From: Parvularculaceae bacterium
GTDB lineage: Bacteria > Pseudomonadota > Alphaproteobacteria > Caulobacterales > Parvularculaceae
DNA: 32,381 bases
Direction: 5' to 3'
Assembly (NCBI GenBank): GCA_020446725.1
Contig: JAGRED010000270.1
Location: forward strand, 1-32,381
Shown: positions 12,457 through 23,138 of the stretch, one piece after another
Layout: each line of letters begins with the position of its first letter
How positions within the stretch are numbered: position 1 is the first letter of the stretch
Notes under the pieces: generated by a model
Database searches by the model: none
What the model saw: the letters and a program-made list of their open reading frames with translations, nothing else
What the model was told of the DNA's origin: nothing
Made by a program: the position numbers and the translations under genes

Positions 12457-14190
12457 ATGAGAGATACGCGGCCTAGAATGCGCCAATTGCACGACAATCG
12501 CCGAGTCGCCGGCGCGCCGACCGAAGGTGCGGCGCAGCGTGCGCCGCTTGCCGCGGCCGCGGCGCTCGGCGTTCTCGCCGGCGGCGCAGCGTTTCTCGCC
12601 TACGCCATGAGCCGGCCGACCGACACGCCGACGGCGAGCCGCGCCGCGCCGATCGTCATCGCCTCGCCTGCGCCGGAGAAAAAGCTTGATCAGCCTGCGC
12701 GCATATCGAAACCGATTGCGCCTGCCGCCGCCCCGGCAGTCGAGCCGCCTGATGAAATGCAAACGACTCCGGCATCAGGCGATGAGCTCGCCGCCTTCGG
12801 CGGTCCCTTGCGCATCAAGCCTTCACGAGACGTCGCAACGGGCGAAATGTCAGCGCCTCCGACCGCAGTCATGACCCTCGCCTCCCCCTTCATTGCTCAG
12901 GTTGAGGATCGTCCGGCGCCTTTCTATTTCGAAGCTGACCTCAGAAACGACAATTCACAGGGGTCGTACGCCGAAACAATCTCCGACGGAGATTTGCCTG
13001 ATGCTCCTCACGAGCGGCTTATCGCGCTCGCAAAAGGCGAAACATTCGTCGATGCCCTGGCGCGCGCCGGCATTCGCGCAGAAGACAGAAACGCCGCCGC
13101 ATACGCGCTCGGCAAGCTCTTCAATATGCGCCGCCTTCGTCCCTCTCATGAGTTCATTTTGACGCTCGTCCAGCCTCATCAAACCTTTTTTCAGTCCGTT
13201 TCGTCAGCGGATACGCCAGCATCCTACCTGTTGTCGCTCGAATTTCGCGTTGACGCCGAAAATCGCATCACGCTTACGCGCACGACCGACGGAAGTTATT
13301 CTGCGGATGCTTCCGTAGCGCCGCTGACGACACGCATTGCGGCAATTCAGGGCAGGATCGACGGCAGCCTTTATCTTTCGGCCAAGCGGCAGGGCGCGCC
13401 TGATGAGGTCATTGCCGGGCTGGCGCAGATATTCGCCTATGATGTCGATTTCCAGCGCGAGATATTCGGCGGTGATGAGTTCGAAGCGATCTTCGAGGTC
13501 CGCTATGACGACGCCGGAAATCTGGTCGGCGGAGGCGACATTCTTTTCGGTCGCCTGAAATGGCGAGGCCGCCAGAAAGAAAAAGGATATTATCGCTTCG
13601 AAACCGCAGAGGGCCGCGCCGCGCCAGACTATTTCGATGAAAAAGGCGAAAGCGCAAGGCGGCTGCTGATGAAGACGCCTATTGACGGGGCGCGTCTTTC
13701 GTCCGGTTTCGGCACGCGTAAACATCCGATTCTCGGCTATGCGAAAGCTCACAAGGGCGTTGATTTCGCCGCCGCGCGCGGAACGCCGATTATGGCCGCC
13801 GGCGACGGCGTGATCGAACGCGCCGGGCCATACGGATCATTCGGCAATTATGTCCGCATTCGGCACGCACAGGGCTACAAGACAGCCTATGCGCATATGA
13901 ACGCCATAAAAAAAGGCGTGCGCACAGGCGTGCGCGTTCGCCAGGGCGATGTCATTGGTTATGTCGGCACAACCGGACGATCGACAGGTCCCCATCTCCA
14001 TTACGAGGTTCACCTGCGGGACAAACCCGTCAATCCGCAGAGCCTGAAAATCGCTACAGGCTATGAGCTGCAGGGCGCTGATCTGACACGATTTCGCAGC
14101 AAACGGGATGAAATTGACATGCTCAGACAAGGCGTAAATGCAGAGCATGCGCGATTGCTGGCCGACAAGAGCGAGAATGACTCGCTCTGA
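12457..14190 (+). CDS. Membrane-anchored M23 peptidase (MepM/Csd3-like)
   Basis: A 577-residue protein with one membrane segment at about residues 29-50, a Pro/Ala-rich linker, an OapA/Csd3-type domain (HERLIALAKGETFVDALARAG; about residues 185-280), a second barrel domain, and a C-terminal LytM/M23 zinc domain. The zinc ligands are His432 and Asp436 in HKGVDF, and His515 in HLHYEV, with His513 as catalytic residue. All are present, so it should be an active peptidoglycan endopeptidase, cutting cross-links in the periplasm. The frame is open from a TTG at 12391; ATG at 12457 or 12478 is more plausible because the membrane segment follows, but no strong ribosome binding site decides. It is divergent from ydbH. 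Confidence 0.9.
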   Translation: MRDTRPRMRQLHDNRRVAGAPTEGAAQRAPLAAAAALGVLAGGAAFLAYAMSRPTDTPTASRAAPIVIASPAPEKKLDQPARISKPIAPAAAPAVEPPDEMQTTPASGDELAAFGGPLRIKPSRDVATGEMSAPPTAVMTLASPFIAQVEDRPAPFYFEADLRNDNSQGSYAETISDGDLPDAPHERLIALAKGETFVDALARAGIRAEDRNAAAYALGKLFNMRRLRPSHEFILTLVQPHQTFFQSVSSADTPASYLLSLEFRVDAENRITLTRTTDGSYSADASVAPLTTRIAAIQGRIDGSLYLSAKRQGAPDEVIAGLAQIFAYDVDFQREIFGGDEFEAIFEVRYDDAGNLVGGGDILFGRLKWRGRQKEKGYYRFETAEGRAAPDYFDEKGESARRLLMKTPIDGARLSSGFGTRKHPILGYAKAHKGVDFAAARGTPIMAAGDGVIERAGPYGSFGNYVRIRHAQGYKTAYAHMNAIKKGVRTGVRVRQGDVIGYVGTTGRSTGPHLHYEVHLRDKPVNPQSLKIATGYELQGADLTRFRSKRDEIDMLRQGVNAEHARLLADKSENDSL

Positions 14191-14223
14191 TCAGGGCAGA
14201 AGCGGCGGCGCTGTCGGAGAGCT

Positions 14224-16266
14224 TTACGCCGCGTTCCCCGATGAGGCGCCGTCAACCGAGATTTTGCGGCGCAGATCCTGTGCGAACAGCGTGCGCGTGA
14301 AACGCCCAAGGCCCTGGGGGTGCTCCCCAAACGTCGCAATGCGCGACAAAATAAGCGACCGGGTCGTCGGATCCACCGCCGTCGGGAATGACTGTTTCGA
14401 CGCCAGACGATAGTCCGCAAGCGGACGCGCGAAGTCGTCCTTGCGCCATGACGCGATATCATATTGCGACCACCACTCCGGCGTCTCGTCAACCGACTGC
14501 GCGAAAGGCACATGAAGCATGATCGAGCGGTAATAGTCGATAACGGCAGCAAGCATGTCATTGGCGCCGGGGTGCGCATCATCGTCAATCAGCGACTCAA
14601 TCGTCGATTGCAGAAAATCGAGCGCTTCATGCAGGATAATGAAGCGGCCGATCATCGAATATTTGCTGAGCAGGTTGCCGCCGAGCTCACCCTTGACGAG
14701 CAGGTCATAATTCTTGACCGCCCAGGCGACGCATTCATCACGCGTCGAAAACAGCTCCGCTTCATTCTCAGCGACATAGTCCGCTATCGCCTTCTGGAAC
14801 GGCGCAGGCGCTTCCTTCAGCCGCTTCTGCATGCGCTCGATGACCTGAAATGGCCTGAATCCCAATTCCCGCGCGAGACGGAAAGCCTCGCCGAAATTGT
14901 CTTCATAATAATAGATCGTCAGCAGCAGGTGGAAGACGCGCGTTTCCAGATATTCATCGAACGTAAAGTCAGGCGTCTCGACAACCATTTCTTCGGTCTC
15001 AATGACGCTTTCATCCGCATACTCGCCGATGCAACGCGCGACGATACGATGGCGGGTCTTGAAGCCGAACTTTGCACGCTGGTCGGGGTCTGACAGCGGC
15101 GCGCCGTGAAGCAGCATCAGCTGGTGCGCCGAAATGCGGCTTACGCCGGTCTCGATAAGGCGGTCGACCGCCTCCATGAATGACAGCTTCGTTTCGCCAG
15201 GCATGCAAAGGATGAGTTCGCCGTAAGACTGCATGCCCTGACGATGCAGCTCTTCCTGAATCTCCGCGTAGGTGTCGAGACTGATATTCTGCCGCTGAAT
15301 ATTCTTGAGGACTGTCGGGTTCAAGGACTGCACCGCAGACGTCATCGGAAGCCGGCCGCGGGCCTTTTTCATGACGCGGATGATACGTTCGCCCTTGTTC
15401 TTGCCCGTTGTCGTCCGGATGTATTTCGGCCAATCATGCTTGTCCATCAAATGGCCAAGATAATCGGCGACTTCTTCGTCCTCTTCATACATGCCGAAAT
15501 TGTCGTCAGCGAAACAAAGCGGTCCCTCCGGCTGAATCCGCGCGACGATATAGTCAAGATCCGCTTTGATGTTTTCGAATGAGTGGCGAAACGCTTTTGA
15601 ATTCGAACGCGGAGACGAATTGCAGAACTGGCATGTAAAAGGGCACCCGCGCGCAATCTGCATCAGCGCGAAATAGCCAGTGTTGAAGAACTTATCCATC
15701 AACCCGGTCGTATAGGGAGATGGAATCTCATCGAGGTCGCGTATGCGCTGCACTTCCGCGCCGATGACAAACTCGCCTGATTTCGGATCGATCCACTGAT
15801 TTCCGTCGACAGGTTCGGTCAGCAATCCCTCAGTCGATCCGCCGACATCGGCGTAACGCTGAATGAGATTGAGGAAAGCGATTTCGCTTTCATAGGTCGG
15901 CCCGCGCACATGCGCATCGATTTCCGGCATCGTGCGCATCCATTCTTCCTGCTCGCCGCGCGTCAGCGGAAAATTCGGGCCGCCCATCAACGTCAACGAC
16001 TGCGGCCGCCGACGTTTCAAATATCGCGCAAATGCAAGAGCCAGACGGTGGTTCCAGGAATAGCTCGACAGGCCGAGGACATCCGGCGCCGCCTTATCGA
16101 TTGCTTCTTTCAGTTCCTGAGGTTCGCGGAATATCTCGAACTGCAAAGGCGATTTTGATGTCGCATTCGCCTTGGCGTATGCGGCGAGATTCGCCACGCC
16201 GAGCGGATAAACATCCGACGTCTTCGTAATTAGGTTATGACCAAGGTCCGCTAGATAAACGCGCAC
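14224..16266 (-). CDS. B12-binding-domain radical SAM protein, function unknown
   Basis: A 680-residue protein. The N-terminal 120 residues form a cobalamin-binding-like fold (VLGLSSYSWNHRLALAFARYL, MGGPNFP) and lack an obvious DxHxxG motif. The radical SAM cluster CPFTCQFC follows with Cys208, Cys212 and Cys215, then a barrel with RTTTGKNKG and GELILCMPGET. The last 250 residues are helical and unlike common families. The overall type resembles class B radical SAM enzymes that methylate or rearrange unreactive carbons, but the substrate is unknown. It starts with GTG at 16266, with GAGGGG four bases before it. It is the last of a same-strand run from clpB, 118 bases after the M14-like gene, and has a CtrA-type box close upstream, so it probably has its own promoter. 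Confidence 0.85.
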   Translation of the reverse strand: MRVYLADLGHNLITKTSDVYPLGVANLAAYAKANATSKSPLQFEIFREPQELKEAIDKAAPDVLGLSSYSWNHRLALAFARYLKRRRPQSLTLMGGPNFPLTRGEQEEWMRTMPEIDAHVRGPTYESEIAFLNLIQRYADVGGSTEGLLTEPVDGNQWIDPKSGEFVIGAEVQRIRDLDEIPSPYTTGLMDKFFNTGYFALMQIARGCPFTCQFCNSSPRSNSKAFRHSFENIKADLDYIVARIQPEGPLCFADDNFGMYEEDEEVADYLGHLMDKHDWPKYIRTTTGKNKGERIIRVMKKARGRLPMTSAVQSLNPTVLKNIQRQNISLDTYAEIQEELHRQGMQSYGELILCMPGETKLSFMEAVDRLIETGVSRISAHQLMLLHGAPLSDPDQRAKFGFKTRHRIVARCIGEYADESVIETEEMVVETPDFTFDEYLETRVFHLLLTIYYYEDNFGEAFRLARELGFRPFQVIERMQKRLKEAPAPFQKAIADYVAENEAELFSTRDECVAWAVKNYDLLVKGELGGNLLSKYSMIGRFIILHEALDFLQSTIESLIDDDAHPGANDMLAAVIDYYRSIMLHVPFAQSVDETPEWWSQYDIASWRKDDFARPLADYRLASKQSFPTAVDPTTRSLILSRIATFGEHPQGLGRFTRTLFAQDLRRKISVDGASSGNAA

Positions 16267-16280
16267 GATCCCCTCGCAAT

Positions 16281-16295
16281 TTAATGAGACATTAA
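16281..16295 (-). promoter_or_regulatory. CtrA-type box (TTAA-N7-TTAA)
   Basis: TTAATGAGACATTAA matches the full CtrA consensus and, in my reading, is the only perfect copy in the window. It lies 15 bases before the GTG start of the B12 radical SAM gene. Nearby are two GAACGT copies at 16301 and 16315. Position that close to a start would suit repression or a very short leader. Binding is inference. Confidence 0.45.
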
Positions 16296-16384
16296 ACCAT
16301 GAACGTCGTTAACAGAACGTTCCTATGCCGGCTCGCGCTTGCATTTGGCGGCGTCGTCCCCTGCCCGCAGCCGTTTTGCGCCGA

Positions 16385-17413
16385 TCAACCCTCAGCGCCG
16401 AGGGTGATTCCTTCCATGAGATAGCCAAGGCAGTCAAGCCGCGCATTATCGCGGTCCGTCGACAGCATCGACGGCGTCGCCGGCGCGATGAGACGGGTCT
16501 CGCCGGCCTCCTGACGGAAGAACTTATCCGTCATATCCGAGCCGTCCTCGCCGATCACCCGAAGCGGCGACTTGCGCTTGCCTGACCGCGCCCATACAGC
16601 CTCGGTTCCGATTGGCCGGAAATTCCAGGTCTCAATCCCCGGCTCGATCATGATGTCAGCATCAGCGCCGTCAAAACTGAACGTCGACCCGTCCTCCAGC
16701 ATAATCCGGCCGAGCGTGTGATAGAGTTTTAGGGCGCGCACGGCCTGAAAGTCCTGCCTCAACGCATCAATCCGCAACGACTTCTCGACCAGTTCGAGCG
16801 CAGTCTCATAGCCCGCCGGGTCTCCGGAACGACCGCATTCGACCGCAATTGACGGCGAAAACGCTGAACAGGCGACCGAAAGCGCGCTCGGGGGATTGGT
16901 GTAATAGACGGCGAGGTCTGTAAAAATCGATGCAAGATGAAGGTGCTGCGGCTCCAGCCGGCTGACGCAACTATATAAAGGATTGCGCCCGGTATTGTTG
17001 TGGATGTCGATTACGGCGAATGGCCCAACGGAACGAAATATGCTCAACGTCTCGGCTGCAAGCGCATGTATCGGCTGATCGCCGCCCGACCAGATCCGGT
17101 TAAAGTCCGGCTGGCCGGGAAGATAGCGTTTCCCAGCCGCTGACGCCGGGATGTTCCCGACAAAAAGCATGATCGCCCGCTCAAGCGGCCGTCCGCGCGC
17201 CCTTGCAATTAGCGCACGCGCGACATCCCAGCTTGTTGTTTCATTACCGTGCAGCAGAACGGAGACGACGAGCGGCGGCGTTTGCTCACCGCGAAGATGT
17301 ATCAGCGACGGCCCATCCAGGATTGTCCCAAGATTTATCGCTGAAACATCTTCCAGACCGTATGGCGGCGTATCGAATATCGAAAGGCGCATGACGTTAG
17401 ACGGTCCACTCAT
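16385..17413 (-). CDS. M14/AstE-like zinc hydrolase (succinylglutamate desuccinylase/aspartoacylase family)
   Basis: A 342-residue zinc-dependent hydrolase that would cut an amide bond on a small acylated amino acid or peptide. The zinc ligands are His55 and Glu58 in LLHGNETT and His138 in DIHNNTGRN; Glu192 in AVECGRSG is the likely catalytic base. The FNRIW motif at residues 104-108 matches the substrate-binding Asn-Arg region. A small C-terminal beta domain follows, as in AstE. The start overlaps the end of the GCS2 ligase gene by 17 bases, so the two are translationally coupled; an ATG seven codons in would remove the overlap. A ligase and a hydrolase for similar amide bonds side by side suggest one pathway. 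The arginine-degradation ast genes are absent nearby. Confidence 0.8.
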   Translation of the reverse strand: MSGPSNVMRLSIFDTPPYGLEDVSAINLGTILDGPSLIHLRGEQTPPLVVSVLLHGNETTSWDVARALIARARGRPLERAIMLFVGNIPASAAGKRYLPGQPDFNRIWSGGDQPIHALAAETLSIFRSVGPFAVIDIHNNTGRNPLYSCVSRLEPQHLHLASIFTDLAVYYTNPPSALSVACSAFSPSIAVECGRSGDPAGYETALELVEKSLRIDALRQDFQAVRALKLYHTLGRIMLEDGSTFSFDGADADIMIEPGIETWNFRPIGTEAVWARSGKRKSPLRVIGEDGSDMTDKFFRQEAGETRLIAPATPSMLSTDRDNARLDCLGYLMEGITLGAEG

Positions 17414-18836
17414 GCACCGGCATTCCGGACTCCTGAAGCTCAGCGTAGCGCATCGTCATCGCCTGAAAATCAGCGCCATGCGTGTTGATAAAGCCGCGCT
17501 GCCAGGCGGCGCCCCCGCGCCCCGACATAAGCCGTCCTCGCAAAACGCCGTCGATCCGTTCTGAAATCTCCTCTTTTGTCAGACCCGCCGATATTAAACC
17601 TTCACGAGCTTCATCCAGCAGGCGATCCAACAACAACGCTTGCGCATCATGAATACGCCCGTCCGTCCACATTAGGCGGCTTTTCAAACCGTATCTCGCT
17701 GCGGCGTAGAAATTCTCACGTGCCGCCTCGAAGGCAATGAGCGTTTCCGGCGGCGTTTCCATGCGCGCATAGTAAAGCGCCAGACCAAGATAGAGAGCCA
17801 TATTGGCGACCATGTCGGCAATCGTCGGCCCCGCCGCCGTCGCGCGATGTTCAATCCTCAAATGCGGCGCGCCGTCTTCGTTGAACCCGATAATTGGGCG
17901 ATTCCAACGCCAAATGGTCCCGTTCTGCAATCTCAAATGCGCGAGCTTTTCAGCCGGTTTATCTGCAAGCGCCGGCAAAAGAGACGGATAGCCTTCATGA
18001 TTTTCCAGAAACAGCTCGAGAAATGACCGTCTGACATAACCGGCGCCGAAGGTGACCCGGCCGCAAGGCCTTCCCGCAATGTCTCGAAACGCCGCAACGG
18101 ACACCGCCTGTTCGAAGGTTGGAATGCGTGTTTCAGCCCACAATGACTTCCCATAAAGGAATGGCGAGTTGGAACTTGCCGCAACAATCGGGGCGGAGAT
18201 GATTTGGGATGCGTTCCAGAAGCGCGCCGCTTCTTCCTGGTTGATCTGAAGGTGAGTCTGGATCGATGTGCACGCCGCTTCCATCATCACGTGGTCGCAC
18301 CGCATTTCAAGGCTTTCTTCACCCTCGATACGGATATGCAGCGGGGCGCCTGATCGAAGACGGAAAACTTCCTCATTGAGCGATTTGTAGCGCTCGGCCG
18401 GCGACATCCAGTCGAGCTGAAGCATCTCATCGCGCACAGTAGGCAAAATGCCGATAAGGATCGGGGTCAAGTTGAGCGATTCAGCCGTACCGCGACAGGT
18501 TGCCCAGGTGCGCGCCAACTCTCGCTCAACAGCACGCAGAAATCCTGGGCGCAACCTCTCCGGCGCGGTATTGATTTCAAAATTGAACTGAGAAAGCTCG
18601 GCGACAATCAGTGGATCATCCGCCGCCGCCAAGAATTCGACATTTCGCGGCGCCGGCAGCGCATTTTCATCGGTCAGCCAAGCTTCGACTTCAAGGCCGC
18701 CCGTAAACCCGTCATCATAGGCGAACATGCGTTTGTCGAACCAGGATTTGAGGATTTTGGTCTCTTCGCGAAGACGCGCGCCGAATTCAGCGCGCACTTC
18801 GTCGCTGAACCTTCCGGACGCAATCTCCTGCCCCAT
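17397..18836 (-). CDS. GCS2-family glutamate-cysteine ligase-like amide ligase
   Basis: A 479-residue ATP-dependent carboxylate-amine ligase of the GCS2 type. GLEVEAWL at residues 47-54 and FNFEINTAPE at 84-93 carry the metal-binding glutamates, and ACTSIQTHLQI at 188-198 and RIEHRATAAGPT are further family marks. The true glutathione enzyme is one possible identity, but in this family many members join glutamate to other amines. The neighbourhood here (M14-like hydrolase overlapping downstream, Anbu 83 bases upstream) favours a specialised role. GGGAG eight bases before the ATG supports the start. Length is longer than YbdK (about 370) and close to longer alphaproteobacterial forms. Confidence 0.85.
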   Translation of the reverse strand: MGQEIASGRFSDEVRAEFGARLREETKILKSWFDKRMFAYDDGFTGGLEVEAWLTDENALPAPRNVEFLAAADDPLIVAELSQFNFEINTAPERLRPGFLRAVERELARTWATCRGTAESLNLTPILIGILPTVRDEMLQLDWMSPAERYKSLNEEVFRLRSGAPLHIRIEGEESLEMRCDHVMMEAACTSIQTHLQINQEEAARFWNASQIISAPIVAASSNSPFLYGKSLWAETRIPTFEQAVSVAAFRDIAGRPCGRVTFGAGYVRRSFLELFLENHEGYPSLLPALADKPAEKLAHLRLQNGTIWRWNRPIIGFNEDGAPHLRIEHRATAAGPTIADMVANMALYLGLALYYARMETPPETLIAFEAARENFYAAARYGLKSRLMWTDGRIHDAQALLLDRLLDEAREGLISAGLTKEEISERIDGVLRGRLMSGRGGAAWQRGFINTHGADFQAMTMRYAELQESGMPVHEWTV

Positions 18837-18919
18837 ATATCGCGCTCCCGCAGCCTGGAACAGCGCCCATCCGACCCTATCCCGAACTTGCGGTCAATGA
18901 AGGCAATCACTGAGCTGGC

Positions 18920-19654
18920 TCAGATTGCGTCGTAATCCGGCAAAGCATCGAAAGCGCGCTTCAGCGCCTCACCCCAACCGTCGGAGATCACGCGAAAATA
19001 GGGATCGTCCGGCGGCACCCGGCGGGAATGACCTATCCGCAACGCGTCTCTTTCGATGATCTGCAGATCGAGCGGCGCGCCCACGGACAGATTCGCCTTT
19101 ATAGTCGAATCGAAAGACACGAGCAGCAATTTGATGGCGTCAGCGAACGACATTTCCGGATCGTACGCCCTGACTAGGATCGGTCGTCCGTATTTCGTCT
19201 CGCCTGCCTGAAAAAATGGCGTTTCCGCACTCGCCTCTATGAAATTCCCTTCCGGGTAAATTAGAAACAGCCGAGGCGGCATCCCTTTGATCTGGCCGCC
19301 AAGGATAAGCGTCGCGGCGAATTGCGATTCAGCAGTCTGACCTTTGTCGACCGTCGTGCGGATCGTCTCCTTCAACAGGTCGCCGACAATGCGCGCGACT
19401 TGAAACATTGTCGGCGCTTCAAGAATGGATGGGCGTCGCTCGGCTGGCGCTTTGGTGCGTTCGTCGAGAAGGCTGATCACCGCCTGCGTCGTCGCGAGAT
19501 TTCCGACGGTCAAAAGCGTGATGACACGCTCGCCGGGCTCTTCCCACGTAAACATCTTTCGGTACATCGAAATATTGTCGACGCCGGAATTCGTGCGCGT
19601 GTCTGACATAAAAAGAACGCCGCGATCGAGCAGCATTCCAACGCAATAAGTCAT
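18920..19654 (-). CDS. Anbu proteasome-like peptidase
   Basis: A 244-residue Ntn-hydrolase related to HslV and proteasome beta subunits. The first residues are MTYCVGMLLDRG; removal of Met leaves Thr1 as nucleophile. Asp18 in SDTRTNSG and Lys33 in YRKMF (precursor numbering) match the catalytic Asp17 and Lys of the proteasome. Later TVGNLATTQAV and LLVSFDSTIKANLSVG are typical of Anbu. Length is normal (about 240-250). The frame is open upstream to 19768, but the extra residues are basic and would block Thr1 exposure. Family members form open, helical rings without a known ATPase. It lies 31 bases after the transglutaminase gene, in the conserved cluster order. Confidence 0.92.
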   Translation of the reverse strand: MTYCVGMLLDRGVLFMSDTRTNSGVDNISMYRKMFTWEEPGERVITLLTVGNLATTQAVISLLDERTKAPAERRPSILEAPTMFQVARIVGDLLKETIRTTVDKGQTAESQFAATLILGGQIKGMPPRLFLIYPEGNFIEASAETPFFQAGETKYGRPILVRAYDPEMSFADAIKLLLVSFDSTIKANLSVGAPLDLQIIERDALRIGHSRRVPPDDPYFRVISDGWGEALKRAFDALPDYDAI

Positions 19655-19685
19655 ATCATACGCCCACTCTGAAGTCGCACTAATT

Positions 19686-20489
19686 CTATTGCTGAATCTG
19701 GACCGTGACAATCGGCGCCGATGCTCCGCCGCCGATGACAAGACCGCGCATAGGCGCCGCCTCAGCATAATCGAGTCCTACGGCGAGTCTAATATATCGT
19801 TCATCAGGACATTGACGATTGGCGGGATCAAATCCGACCCAGCCGAGCGCTTCAACATGAGCTTCAGCCCATGCATGGCTTGCTTCATGCTGCTCACCAT
19901 TGTCCAACGCAAGATAGCCACTGACATAACGGGCCGGGAATCCCATATTGCGCGCGCAGGCGACAAAGGCGTGCGCATGATCCTGGCAAACGCCGCAACC
20001 GGCCTTAAGCGCTTCCTCGGCGCTGGTGCCGACGTCGGTGCGACCAACTTCATACCGGATGGCTTCTGCGACCGCCTCGTTAAGGACATGCAGTCGATCG
20101 AGATCGTTTACTTCGTCTTTAAGACCCGCGACCAAATTCAACACACGCTCGCCCTGTTTCGTCAGCGCCGTGGAGCGCTGATAGAGCCAGATAGGCGCAA
20201 AGCCTCGATGCGGGCCGAACACGCCAGCACGTTCAATCGTTTCCACGACGCCCTCGCAGCGCAAGCGAATATGCGTTCCGGCGCCGGCGAGGCTGAACAG
20301 CATCGTTTCATTGCCATGCTGATCGGCAAAGACAGCCTCGATCGAACCGCCTTCAAGCGTCACATTCCATGCCGTCACATCTTGCACCGAACAGGATCGC
20401 GGCGTCAGCCGCACCTGCTGGATAATAAAGGACGAGGCATGATCAAGCTCATAGTCCGTTGTATGATTGACCGCTATTCGCATGCTCAT
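19686..20489 (-). CDS. Transglutaminase-like cysteine protease of the Anbu cluster
   Basis: A 267-residue protein with an N-terminal beta domain (residues 1-80, with the sequence TDYELDHASS typical of the bacterial transglutaminase N-terminal region) and a transglutaminase-like papain-fold core. The triad is Cys168 in CGVCQDHAHAF, His205 in ASHAWAEA and Asp221 in GFDPANR. Such enzymes cut or transfer amide bonds at glutamine or peptide substrates. The start codon overlaps the alpha-E stop codon (ATGA), so the two are translationally coupled. It is encoded between alpha-E and Anbu as in other genomes. The substrate is unknown. Confidence 0.92.
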   Translation of the reverse strand: MSMRIAVNHTTDYELDHASSFIIQQVRLTPRSCSVQDVTAWNVTLEGGSIEAVFADQHGNETMLFSLAGAGTHIRLRCEGVVETIERAGVFGPHRGFAPIWLYQRSTALTKQGERVLNLVAGLKDEVNDLDRLHVLNEAVAEAIRYEVGRTDVGTSAEEALKAGCGVCQDHAHAFVACARNMGFPARYVSGYLALDNGEQHEASHAWAEAHVEALGWVGFDPANRQCPDERYIRLAVGLDYAEAAPMRGLVIGGGASAPIVTVQIQQ

Positions 20490-21424
20490 TCGTAGAATCT
20501 GTAATCGTTTTCGATAGCGCTTGCGAGCGCGCCATTTTCGGCGATGAACCGTACCAGAAATTCGTGGAGGCCCTCGCTGAATACAGCCTCCATCGTCTCG
20601 GTGTTGAACTGCCGATCCGCTTCGACCGCAAGAGCTGTCGACGGCGCGGGAATGGCGTACTCGTTTTCAAGCCGGCGAAGATTTGTGACAAGGTCATCAT
20701 AACAGAACGCCAGTGAGCGCGGCATTCGACAGTCGAATATCAAGAATTCGGCGATGCCGAAGGAAGATACGTCTCCATTGAGCCAACGATATGACCGCTG
20801 CGCTGAGACCGCACGCAAGATCATGTCCCATTGCACATTATCAGCACGGGACCCGACGAGCGCCGGCGACGGCAGAAGAACATAGTATTTCACATCGAGG
20901 ATGCGCGCCGTATTGTCGGCGCGTTCAATCATGGCGCCCGCCTGACAGAAGGAATAAATATCATTTCTCAGCATGGTGCCGTAGAATGCGCCGCGAACCT
21001 GCGCCGCAAGATGGCGCACAAGAGAGAGCGTTTCAGGCAGATCGCTTCTCAATGTCGGCTCGGCAAGGGCGTCCTTGAGCAACAAATAAGCCTCATTCAT
21101 CGCCTCCCAAACCTCACGCGTCAGCGCGGTTCGAACGAGGCGCGCATTATCGCGCGCCGCTTTTATCGATGCATAAACGCTTGACGGATTGGACGGTTCG
21201 GCAAGCAGGTAATCGGTGACTCCGGAGCCGCTCATTTCGCCATGCATTGCGATGAAGGCGTCGAGGACGCCGGCTGTCGCAGCGATCGACCTCCATTCAT
21301 CCTCCGCTGCGCTGGCGCGTGTCAAAGCTATCCGATGTCCCGCATCGATAAGGCGCGCCGTGTTTTCCGCCCGCTCAAGGTAACGGAACATCCAAAATAG
21401 GCCTCCGGCGGTGCGTCCGAGCAT
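20486..21424 (-). CDS. Alpha-E domain protein
   Basis: A 312-residue all-helical protein with the alpha-E signature GRTAGGLFWMFRYLERAEN at residues 3-21, a repeated Arg/Glu-rich helix (GAMIERADNTARILD), and a C-terminal half rich in aromatic residues. The domain has no known catalytic activity and is often fused to or encoded beside circularly permuted ATP-grasp, perhaps presenting a carrier or substrate. It ends in Phe-Tyr-Glu, the hydrophobic-Tyr-X pattern used by proteasome activators. It follows the ATP-grasp gene by five bases; its ribosome binding site GGAGG lies in that gene's last codons. Confidence 0.92.
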   Translation of the reverse strand: MLGRTAGGLFWMFRYLERAENTARLIDAGHRIALTRASAAEDEWRSIAATAGVLDAFIAMHGEMSGSGVTDYLLAEPSNPSSVYASIKAARDNARLVRTALTREVWEAMNEAYLLLKDALAEPTLRSDLPETLSLVRHLAAQVRGAFYGTMLRNDIYSFCQAGAMIERADNTARILDVKYYVLLPSPALVGSRADNVQWDMILRAVSAQRSYRWLNGDVSSFGIAEFLIFDCRMPRSLAFCYDDLVTNLRRLENEYAIPAPSTALAVEADRQFNTETMEAVFSEGLHEFLVRFIAENGALASAIENDYRFYE

Positions 21425-21429
21425 CGCGG

Positions 21430-22875
21430 CTATTCCTCCAGCACCCAGGTGTCTTTGGTGCCGCCGCCCTGGCTTGAATTGACGACGAGCGAACCTTCCT
21501 TCATGGCGACACGAGTCAGCCCGCCCGGCGTGATATCAATGCGATCAGGAGAAACAAGCACGAACGGGCGGAGATCGACGTGGCGCGGCGCGAGGCCCGA
21601 TTTGGTGAATATCGGCACGGTGGACAAAGCCAGCGTCGGCTGGGCGATATAGTTGTCCGGGCGAGTTTTTAGTTTTTGTGCGAAATCCTCAATTTCGGCG
21701 GCGCTCGACGTTGGTCCGACGAGCATGCCGTATCCGCCCGATCCATGCACTTCCTTGACGACAAGCTCCGCGAGATTGTCGAGAACGTAAGCGAGCGCAT
21801 CCGGTTCTGCGCAGCGCCATGTCGGCACGTTTTTCAGGATCGCTTTTTCTCCGGTATAGAATTCGACGATCTCAGGCATATACGAATAGATCGCCTTATC
21901 ATCAGCAATGCCGGCGCCGGGCGCGTTTGCGATGGTGATGCCGCCGGCGCGATATATGTCCATGACGCCCGGCACGCCGAGCGTCGATTCCGGGCGAAAC
22001 GAAAGCGGGTCCAGGTAATCGTCATCAACGCGGCGATAAAGGACATCTATTGGCTTGAATCCTTGCGTTGTCCGCATTGCGACGCGGCCATCGGCGACCC
22101 TAAGGTCGCTTCCCTCGACAAGCTCGGCGCCCATCTGGTCGGCCAGGAACGCATGTTCGAAATATGCCGAATTGAAAATGCCGGGGGTCAACACTGCAAC
22201 GACTGCGCGATGATGAGCAGACGCCGGCGCGCAGGCTGATAATGAGCGGCGCAGATTGACCGGGTAGTCTCCGACTTCCCTCACCCGTACGCGGGCGAAG
22301 AGTTCCGGGAACATCTGCAGCATCGTTTCCCGGTTCTCCAGAACATAGGAGACGCCGGAAGGCGTTCTTGCGTTGTCTTCAAGAACATAGAAATCGTCCG
22401 GTCCCGTCCGAACAATATCGACGCCGACAATATGCGTGTAAACGCCGCCGGGCGGATCAACGCCAATCATAGTGGGCAAAAAGGCGTCGTTGGCGGCGAT
22501 CAGCCGCTTTGGAATGCGTCCCGCCCGCAAAATTTCCTGACGATGGTAGATGTCGTAGATGAATGCGTTGATCGCCCGCACGCGCTGTTCAATTCCGCGG
22601 GTGAGGCGACGCCATTCAGAAGCGGCGATGATCCGCGGAATGATGTCGAACGGGATCAGCCTCTCGGCGGCTTCGGTTTGTCCATATACGTTGAAAGTTA
22701 TGCCGGTGCGGCGAAAAAACCGTTCGCAATCGGCTGCTTTTTGCTCCAGCAAGGCTTGGTCTACCGCATCGAACCAGCGGCTGTATTCCTCGTATGGCGG
22801 CGTCGGAGCCGAGGGGGCAGCCGCAGCGTCCCTCTGTCCCAGCATTTCATCGAAACTGCGTGCGCTGACCGCCAT
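21430..22875 (-). CDS. Circularly permuted ATP-grasp ligase
   Basis: A 481-residue circularly permuted type 2 ATP-grasp protein. The visible motifs are DFYVLEDNARTPSG at residues 161-174, DDKAIYSYMP at 325-334, VVKEVHGSGGYGM at 372-384 and RHVDLRPF at 431-438; these give the ATP and metal sites in an order differing from classic ATP-grasp. The expected reaction is ATP-dependent joining of a carboxylate to an amine, as in peptide-like ligation. The substrate is unknown. AAAGG before the ATG lies in the arm of a hairpin. It starts the conserved ATP-grasp/alpha-E/transglutaminase/Anbu set, which comparative genomics has described as a possible peptide-synthesis and degradation system. Confidence 0.92.
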   Translation of the reverse strand: MAVSARSFDEMLGQRDAAAAPSAPTPPYEEYSRWFDAVDQALLEQKAADCERFFRRTGITFNVYGQTEAAERLIPFDIIPRIIAASEWRRLTRGIEQRVRAINAFIYDIYHRQEILRAGRIPKRLIAANDAFLPTMIGVDPPGGVYTHIVGVDIVRTGPDDFYVLEDNARTPSGVSYVLENRETMLQMFPELFARVRVREVGDYPVNLRRSLSACAPASAHHRAVVAVLTPGIFNSAYFEHAFLADQMGAELVEGSDLRVADGRVAMRTTQGFKPIDVLYRRVDDDYLDPLSFRPESTLGVPGVMDIYRAGGITIANAPGAGIADDKAIYSYMPEIVEFYTGEKAILKNVPTWRCAEPDALAYVLDNLAELVVKEVHGSGGYGMLVGPTSSAAEIEDFAQKLKTRPDNYIAQPTLALSTVPIFTKSGLAPRHVDLRPFVLVSPDRIDITPGGLTRVAMKEGSLVVNSSQGGGTKDTWVLEE

Positions 22876-22878
22876 TGC

Positions 22879-22917
22879 CGCCTTTCATGCTGCGCCGCAA
22901 CATTCGCATGAAAAGCG
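22879..22917 (-). promoter_or_regulatory. Hairpin over the ATP-grasp ribosome binding site
   Basis: On the minus strand CGCTTTTCATGC pairs with GCATGAAAGGCG (12 base pairs, one G-T), loop 15 bases. It ends three bases before the ATG and includes the AAAGG ribosome binding site. No T-tract follows, so it is more likely a translation control than a terminator. Whether it acts as a thermometer or a protein site is open. Confidence 0.45.
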
Positions 22918-22937
22918 CCGAGGCTCAATGGCGAAAA

Positions 22938-23138
22938 TTACCGCCCCTTTCGGTCTTGGAGAACTTTCGCAATATAGGCGTCAACGTCGAGATCGCCCGT
23001 CGCCTGACCGCGAATGCGTTCTTTGACCTTGTGCGGAATATCATCGGGCGCGATCGCCCCGGCGTTATCGACCGTCTGGCGAATGAGCTTCTTCAATGCC
23101 TCTTCCTTCGCCTTGTCGCTTATCGTCGCCCGGGCCAT
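22938..23138 (-). CDS. Small charged helical protein downstream of clpB
   Basis: A 66-residue protein of unknown family: mostly helical, rich in Lys, Asp and Ala, without membrane or signal segment (MARATISDKAKEEALKKL at the start, DAYIAKVLQDRKGR at the end). GGGAG seven bases before the ATG at 23138 overlaps the clpB stop region, so translation with clpB is likely. The next gene is the ATP-grasp, 62 bases further. I see no close relative I can name; a chaperone accessory or a substrate of the nearby ligase is possible but unproven. Confidence 0.7.
   Translation of the reverse strand: MARATISDKAKEEALKKLIRQTVDNAGAIAPDDIPHKVKERIRGQATGDLDVDAYIAKVLQDRKGR

Follow-up and report, generated by a model that had tools for sequence, protein, structure and literature searches.

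The closest described relatives of the two genes considered here are E. coli YbdK and the plant-type glutamate-cysteine ligase GshA for the first, and AstE, aspartoacylase and aminoacylase 3 for the second. The genes lie on a stretch of 32,381 nucleotides from a Parvularculaceae bacterium (assembly GCA_020446725.1, contig JAGRED010000270.1), analyzed as a whole and referred to as the window, and encode a GCS2-fold ligase and an AstE-fold hydrolase. According to PMC2588565, the GhExE motif is part of the GCS2 metal and ATP site, and PafA/Dop belong to the same superfamily as GCS2. PafA and Dop resemble the present pair in their ligase/hydrolase logic and in fold (Z 15-20), but PMC7947786 describes them as mutual homologues, whereas the ligase and hydrolase of the window have unrelated folds. 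A precedent on the hydrolase side is CphZ, the cyanophycin beta-Asp-Arg hydrolase, an AstE-fold enzyme that, going by the title of PDB entry 8eip (a complex with beta-Asp-Arg), opens a side-chain isopeptide; cyanophycin is the subject of PMC10206079. The operon of the proteasome relative Anbu, which precedes the pair in the window, has its gene order described in PMC6376114 and PMC5666114, both of which treat its physiological role as open.

The two open reading frames (ORFs) were located as follows.

17397..18836, minus strand: GCS2-fold carboxylate-amine ligase of an unnamed subfamily, 479 amino acids (PF04107, 26.3 bits; GhExE at residues 47-51)
16385..17413, minus strand: AstE/aspartoacylase-fold amidohydrolase, 342 amino acids (PF24827, 37.9 bits; HGNE at 55-58, DIHNNTGxNPxY from 136, E192)
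17397..17413, minus strand: 17-base overlap of the ligase and hydrolase ORFs (from the ORF coordinates)

With a confidence little above even, we read these genes as one metabolic module, probably translationally coupled and patchily distributed, which would encode a gamma-glutamyl-type ligase and hydrolase and which here sits beside an Anbu operon. A first-pass annotation of this DNA had reported the 17-base overlap, which the coordinates bear out and which suggests translational coupling. A second ATG seven codons into the hydrolase ORF would give a short gap and no overlap, so that the exact start is unproven.

Conservation of the pair was evaluated in a scan of named genomes using the ligase alone, which returned 154 ligase relatives; the best 80 were kept and are called the 80 loci. 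An AstE homolog directly followed the ligase on the same strand in 72 of them. As judged by a start-choosing heuristic, the two ORFs overlapped in 50 of these 72 pairs and were no more than 50 bases apart in 65. Record titles, many of them of metagenome bins, assigned the loci to four phyla, namely Pseudomonadota, Nitrospinota, Bdellovibrionota and, once, Planctomycetota. Kordiimonas marina, Parasphingopyxis lamellibrachiae and Hyphobacterium indicum are among the named carriers. Separate searches of 398 Pseudomonadota genomes detected the ligase in 19, the hydrolase in 19 and both in 18, and in all 18 the pair was adjacent on one strand; the genome with the ligase only (G005) carried it as a CBS fusion. 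The order sample contained 14 ligase-matching genomes out of 299, ten with the hydrolase next door, two with CBS fusions, one with an AstE fusion and one with a weak partial match, while 9 of 385 genomes of the class sample matched the ligase, five of them with the hydrolase in the fetched flank. Since the samples overlap, with identical sequences in some named and other loci, these counts are not to be added.

The pairwise distances of the ligases and of the hydrolases were correlated with r = 0.722 over 67 pairs, made up of the window's own pair and those of 66 among the 72 loci; the other six, whose hydrolases were truncated or of odd length, were omitted. None of 2000 permutations gave a value as high, the top permuted value being 0.153. 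Genome G030 adds one isolated hint that the two functions are linked: there, one ORF of 865 amino acids (L031:7660-10254) joins a GCS2 domain (302 bits with the family profile) to an AstE_AspA domain (72 bits). Ligase and hydrolase are co-inherited and usually adjacent, and their catalytic motifs are present.

Variant forms of the ligase gene were also recorded. Related GCS2 ligases with C-terminal CBS domains occur at L028:7153-9111 and L029:7654-9579; the 17 kb fetched contain no AstE of the present kind. At L027 (one TGA) and L030 (several pieces) the ligase gene is interrupted and the AstE gene is open, which may reflect either ligase decay or sequencing error. Four plasmid records matched the ligase; an AstE of this type was found in none of the four fetched plasmid stretches (L036-L039), and a plasmid search gave no DNA-level match to the seven-gene block described below.

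The active sites of both proteins had been called intact in the first-pass annotation, and the alignments agree. In the ligase, which passes the Pfam GCS2 cut-off of 21 bits narrowly, the GhExE motif reads GLEVE. Eighteen of the 19 positions checked, including G47, E49 and E51 of the motif as well as E80, N85, E87, Q193, H195, R327, E329 and R331, are invariant in 81 of 81 sequences, and S191 is the same in 79. The AlphaFold2 model (mean predicted local distance difference test, pLDDT, 95.9; alignment of 49 sequences) was compared with solved structures by VIA-align, returning Z values of 37.5 for the YbdK-type 1tt4, 37.1 for YbdK 1r8g and 32.5 for the plant glutamate-cysteine ligase 2gwc; Foldseek likewise placed it nearest these two groups. 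The RIExR region aligned to E. coli YbdK in a profile comparison (hhalign E 2e-4, probability 45%). This likeness in fold, motif and Pfam family goes along with clear differences, as the ligase shares 14-17% identity with YbdK and plant-type GshA, exceeds E. coli YbdK by 107 residues and is followed by a hydrolase gene. A conserved QNGTxWRWNRP stretch is a further candidate difference.

Subfamily models were less responsive to the ligase. No NCBIfam GshA, YbdK or EgtA model reached its cut-off for the window protein, whose sole YbdK/EgtA subfamily match was PRK13515 (20.4 bits against 371), and the plant-type GshA model TIGR01436 left it unmatched at E 0.001. Among the 49 aligned ligases, TIGR01436 matched one (4.5e-4), and as many as 23 had weak matches to GshA, YbdK or EgtA models (judged by E-values only; lowest 7.6e-10). 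Of two sequence searches of the PDB with the ligase, one was empty and the other returned a single chance match.

The hydrolase passes the Pfam AstE_AspA_cat cut-off of 25 bits, and scores below the cut-off of the AstE equivalog TIGR03242 (24.4 bits against 305.65). H55, E58 and H138 are identical in 72 of 73 sequences, the remaining one having a gap, and E192 in 70, with gaps in the other three; after aspartoacylase, we take the first three to be zinc ligands and E192 to be the general base. Within the HGNE and DIHNNTG stretches the more variable letters are N57 (66/73), N140 (62/73) and T141 (54/73), the remaining checked letters being kept in 70-72 of 73. The AlphaFold2 model (pLDDT 94.7, 43 sequences) gave VIA-align Z values of 19.9-21.1 for AstE (1yw4, 21.1), 18.7-19.6 for aspartoacylase and aminoacylase 3, 19.2 for EutE/DoeB and 16.9 for CphZ 8eip, and an alignment matches its HGNE, DxH and E positions to those of AstE from E. 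coli or Chromobacterium (1yw6/1yw4). The protein differs from AstE, aspartoacylase and aminoacylase 3 by its low identity (12-18%) and by its DIHNNTGxNPxY stretch. It resembles CphZ in the AstE fold and possibly, going by the entry title of the latter, in side-chain (iso)peptide hydrolysis, at 12% identity. Ligase and hydrolase are outside the curated GshA and AstE families. The first-pass annotation had also seen neither glutathione synthetase nor ast genes nearby, and a Pfam scan of 20 window ORFs returned the same picture.

By analogy with their families, the ligase would bind Mg-ATP, activate the side-chain (gamma) carboxylate of glutamate, or of a closely similar compound, as an acyl phosphate and link it to an amine, and the hydrolase would use one zinc and the general base to cut an amide beside a free carboxylate. 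Our likeliest guess is a make-and-release cycle that would protect or store an amine or a thiol amino acid: the ligase would make a gamma-glutamyl-type amide, which the hydrolase would cut as such or after modification. A less likely course would have the hydrolase free an amino acid that the ligase then conjugates. Stated in full, this would be a salvage route with no reversible cycle, in which an amino acid released from an N-acyl form is gamma-glutamylated. The nearest structures of the hydrolase are those of N-acyl-amino-acid hydrolases, aspartoacylase and aminoacylase 3 being enzymes that release amino acids in this way, and gene order and coupling fit either direction; however, no third gene is conserved beside the pair across lineages, and we regard the salvage route as improbable.

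Several observations weigh against a single make-and-release module. Eight of the 80 loci (L042, L043, L059, L063, L070, L072, L094 and L096) have no adjacent hydrolase although each has at least 1.2 kb of downstream DNA, and L042 and L043 hold the two most similar relatives of the window ligase. In the phylum sample, G319 has the hydrolase without the ligase, and four of the nine class-sample ligase loci, belonging to two genera, have no hydrolase within the 1.2-1.5 kb fetched flank. The GCS2-AstE fusion was seen once, with no second case in 385 class genomes or on plasmids. Over its catalytic part the hydrolase is similar in fold to M14 carboxypeptidases (Z 14-15) and to Csd4 (Z 17.1, 180 residues) as well, so a peptide substrate is conceivable. 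Each enzyme may also act on a bond of its own, the substrates being predicted from the families. Finally, neighbouring genes vary between lineages, so that context names no pathway.

The recurrent neighbours were all bound to particular lineages, and no conserved third gene emerged. Maricaulaceae-type loci have a same-strand gshB ahead of the pair, at 55-62 bases (L023/L080, L056), about 450 bases (L022) or about 1.1 kb (L025/L060). In seven of the 80 loci (two of the seven family-scanned) a MetX-family gene overlaps the pair or comes shortly after it, L096 having the lone ligase in place of the pair; in 12 (one of 12 family-scanned) the downstream side holds a convergent SelD-like/oxidoreductase fusion. 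Examples of such loci are L102, L107, L111 and L112. A glutathione S-transferase-like gene was present in three Parasphingopyxis loci and one other, and a nucleoside triphosphate (NTP) transferase gene in nine (one or two family-scanned), presumably MurU-like and, in some loci, near what we take to be an APH-family kinase. Flagellar-looking genes, none family-scanned, occur near the pair in Kordiimonas and relatives. The gshB, MetX-family, SelD-like and glutathione S-transferase-like contexts lean to thiol or sulfur amino-acid chemistry, while being too narrow to decide.

Such neighbours raise the question of whether the ligase is simply the GshA of the organism, with the hydrolase serving thiol salvage or turnover. 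In favour of this reading are the upstream gshB genes, the hint at sulfur or selenium chemistry given by the MetX-family and SelD-like genes, and the window's own assembly (465 contigs, 98.5% complete), which shows a strong GshB match yet no plant-type GshA and no other GCS2 match, the E. coli-type ligases (PF04262, PF08886) being outside that search. Plant-type GshA was found, on the other hand, in 288 of the 299 order-sample genomes, in all eight congeners and in all 13 other order-sample genomes that match the ligase, nine of which carry the pair, two with an interrupted ligase (L027, L030). Since all 13 also have an ordinary GshA, the ligase is probably not the glutathione enzyme. The separate gshA raised as a check in the first-pass annotation was accordingly not found in the assembly itself, where the search covered the plant type, and is present in these relatives.

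Synteny bears on the missing gene. The 19-kb gshA neighbourhood of congener G089 has at most two short matches in the window's genome on the gshA side, while its other side matches contig C293 from base 84, with pieces on C384 and C225. With this closest contig starting some 2 kb away from the expected gshA, a contig break is the simplest reading of the absence, and loss a further possibility. In a quick maximum-likelihood tree, drawn with the YbdK, haloarchaeal, L145, L148, L151 and L152 rows omitted, GshA (6 rows) and the ligase clade (23 rows, being the window and 22 of the 80 loci) fell on opposite sides of a branch with a Shimodaira-Hasegawa approximate likelihood-ratio test (SH-aLRT) value of 100 and at a very long distance. 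The phylogeny proposed in the first-pass annotation therefore does not group the ligase with GshA. The ligase is probably distinct from ordinary GshA, also in view of the NCBIfam results, and we judge it unlikely to be the GshA of the organism. The idea of a sole GshA was judged unlikely from the presence of GshA in the order and genus samples together with the synteny, the search of the window's own genome covering plant-type GshA and GCS2.

Returning to the window, the pair belongs to a block of seven genes, the other members of which are listed here.

21430..22875, minus strand: circularly permuted ATP-grasp protein, Anbu operon (PF14403, 542.7 bits)
20486..21424, minus strand: Alpha-E protein, Anbu operon (PF04168, 273.8 bits)
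19686..20489, minus strand: transglutaminase-like protein, Anbu operon (PF01841, 81.9 bits; PF08379, 47.7 bits)
18920..19654, minus strand: Anbu, proteasome-like (PF00227, 25.8 bits; start taken as the Met before Thr1; Thr1, Asp17 and Lys32 present)
14224..16266, minus strand: B12-binding radical S-adenosylmethionine (SAM) protein, last gene of the block (PF04055, 42.2 bits; PF02310, 38.8 bits)
14119..22971, no strand assigned: seven-gene block of about 8.85 kb (flanks, an M23 gene and clpB, close together in congeners)

On the minus strand the order of transcription is ATP-grasp, Alpha-E, transglutaminase, Anbu, GCS2 ligase, AstE hydrolase and radical SAM. The first four genes are an Anbu operon in the published order, directly upstream of the pair and separated from it by a gap of 83 bases between Anbu and the ligase; the GCS2, AstE and radical SAM genes are extra. 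The name Anbu is based on the proteasome-family match, the operon order and the residues Thr1, Asp17 and Lys32, no Anbu model in the libraries used having named the protein; these are the catalytic residues as given in PMC6376114. The first-pass annotation, while correct on the absence of glutathione synthetase and ast genes, mentioned neither this operon nor the gshB genes near the pair in some Maricaulaceae.

The flanks of the block, about 8.85 kb apart in the window, gave matches 158, 163, 547, 677 and 729 bases apart in congeners G094, G253, G089, G263 and G059, respectively; in the other three the distance was 2.4 kb (G099), the order was rearranged (G223) or the contigs were broken (G679). 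Searches found no Anbu in the eight congeners and no ligase in the seven congeners of the order sample. As the block is absent from the corresponding place in congeners, it was either gained here or lost in relatives. In this genome the pair would have come in, or been kept, within a block starting with the Anbu operon. The GC content of the block is only slightly below that of most of the window, and the number of promoter- and terminator-like sites was similar to that in shuffled sequences.

The close association with Anbu brings up a further possibility, namely that the pair belongs to the Anbu system in this lineage, the ligase carrying out glutamine-synthetase-type peptide ligation and the AstE-fold protein removing the tag. 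The seven one-strand genes missing at the corresponding congener site are consistent with one insertion, and, according to PMC6376114, Anbu operons encode amide-forming enzymes, and a tagging role has been proposed. PMC2588565 further reports that the Pup ligase PafA matched GCS2 best among profiles, and that a transglutaminase-like domain is fused to another ligase of the PafA/GCS2 superfamily. The Anbu, transglutaminase, Alpha-E and ATP-grasp genes were, however, present in none of the 80 pair loci within the DNA fetched (54 of them with flanks of 5 kb or longer to either side). Small carboxylates are presumably the substrates of the solved structures closest to the hydrolase, and a single insertion could have placed the genes side by side by chance. 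We hold this possibility to be doubtful. Among the 80 loci the pair did not prove to be a regular Anbu-operon member, and Anbu was discarded as its general partner on the same count, the Anbu loci of other genomes lying outside the survey.

Very unlikely, in our estimate, is the broader proposal that all seven genes form one system, in which the GCS2 enzyme would attach and the AstE-fold enzyme remove a gamma-glutamyl-type tag or peptide handled by Anbu, with the B12 radical SAM protein modifying the product. If true, it would supply the Anbu operon with the conjugating and deconjugating enzymes that it has lacked.

The block-final radical SAM protein appears to be a distant relative of the KedN5 C-methyltransferase group (NCBIfam NF033712, KedN5-like, 196.3 bits, under the cut-off of 700). 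Elsewhere in the window, positions 1511-2683 encode an N6/N4 DNA methylase with a RAMA domain, which we take to be CcrM-like.

We return to the make-and-release module as our preferred reading. The first-pass annotation had interpreted the locus as an amide-forming and amide-cutting pair acting on an unknown gamma-glutamyl or acyl-amino metabolite. This interpretation is partly supported, in that the linkage is real, conserved and apart from GshA by sequence, and no named pathway accounts for it. Among the matches listed in a search of titles and abstract beginnings of the open-licence literature, no publication dealt with a GCS2-AstE pair; Iyer et al. 2009 on the Anbu operon lies outside that scope and may treat related pairs.

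About one sampled Pseudomonadota genome in 20 carries the pair (18 of 398), and record titles add three further phyla. This frequency and the near-constant adjacency of the two genes suggest that a real metabolite or a protective conjugate, one to which we could put no name, lies behind them. The pair marks a piece of metabolism uncharacterised so far, the Anbu operon itself being already known. Both enzymes are easy to express and assay, and because the pair lies here beside Anbu, a proteasome relative, testing it may give a handle on the Anbu substrate question.

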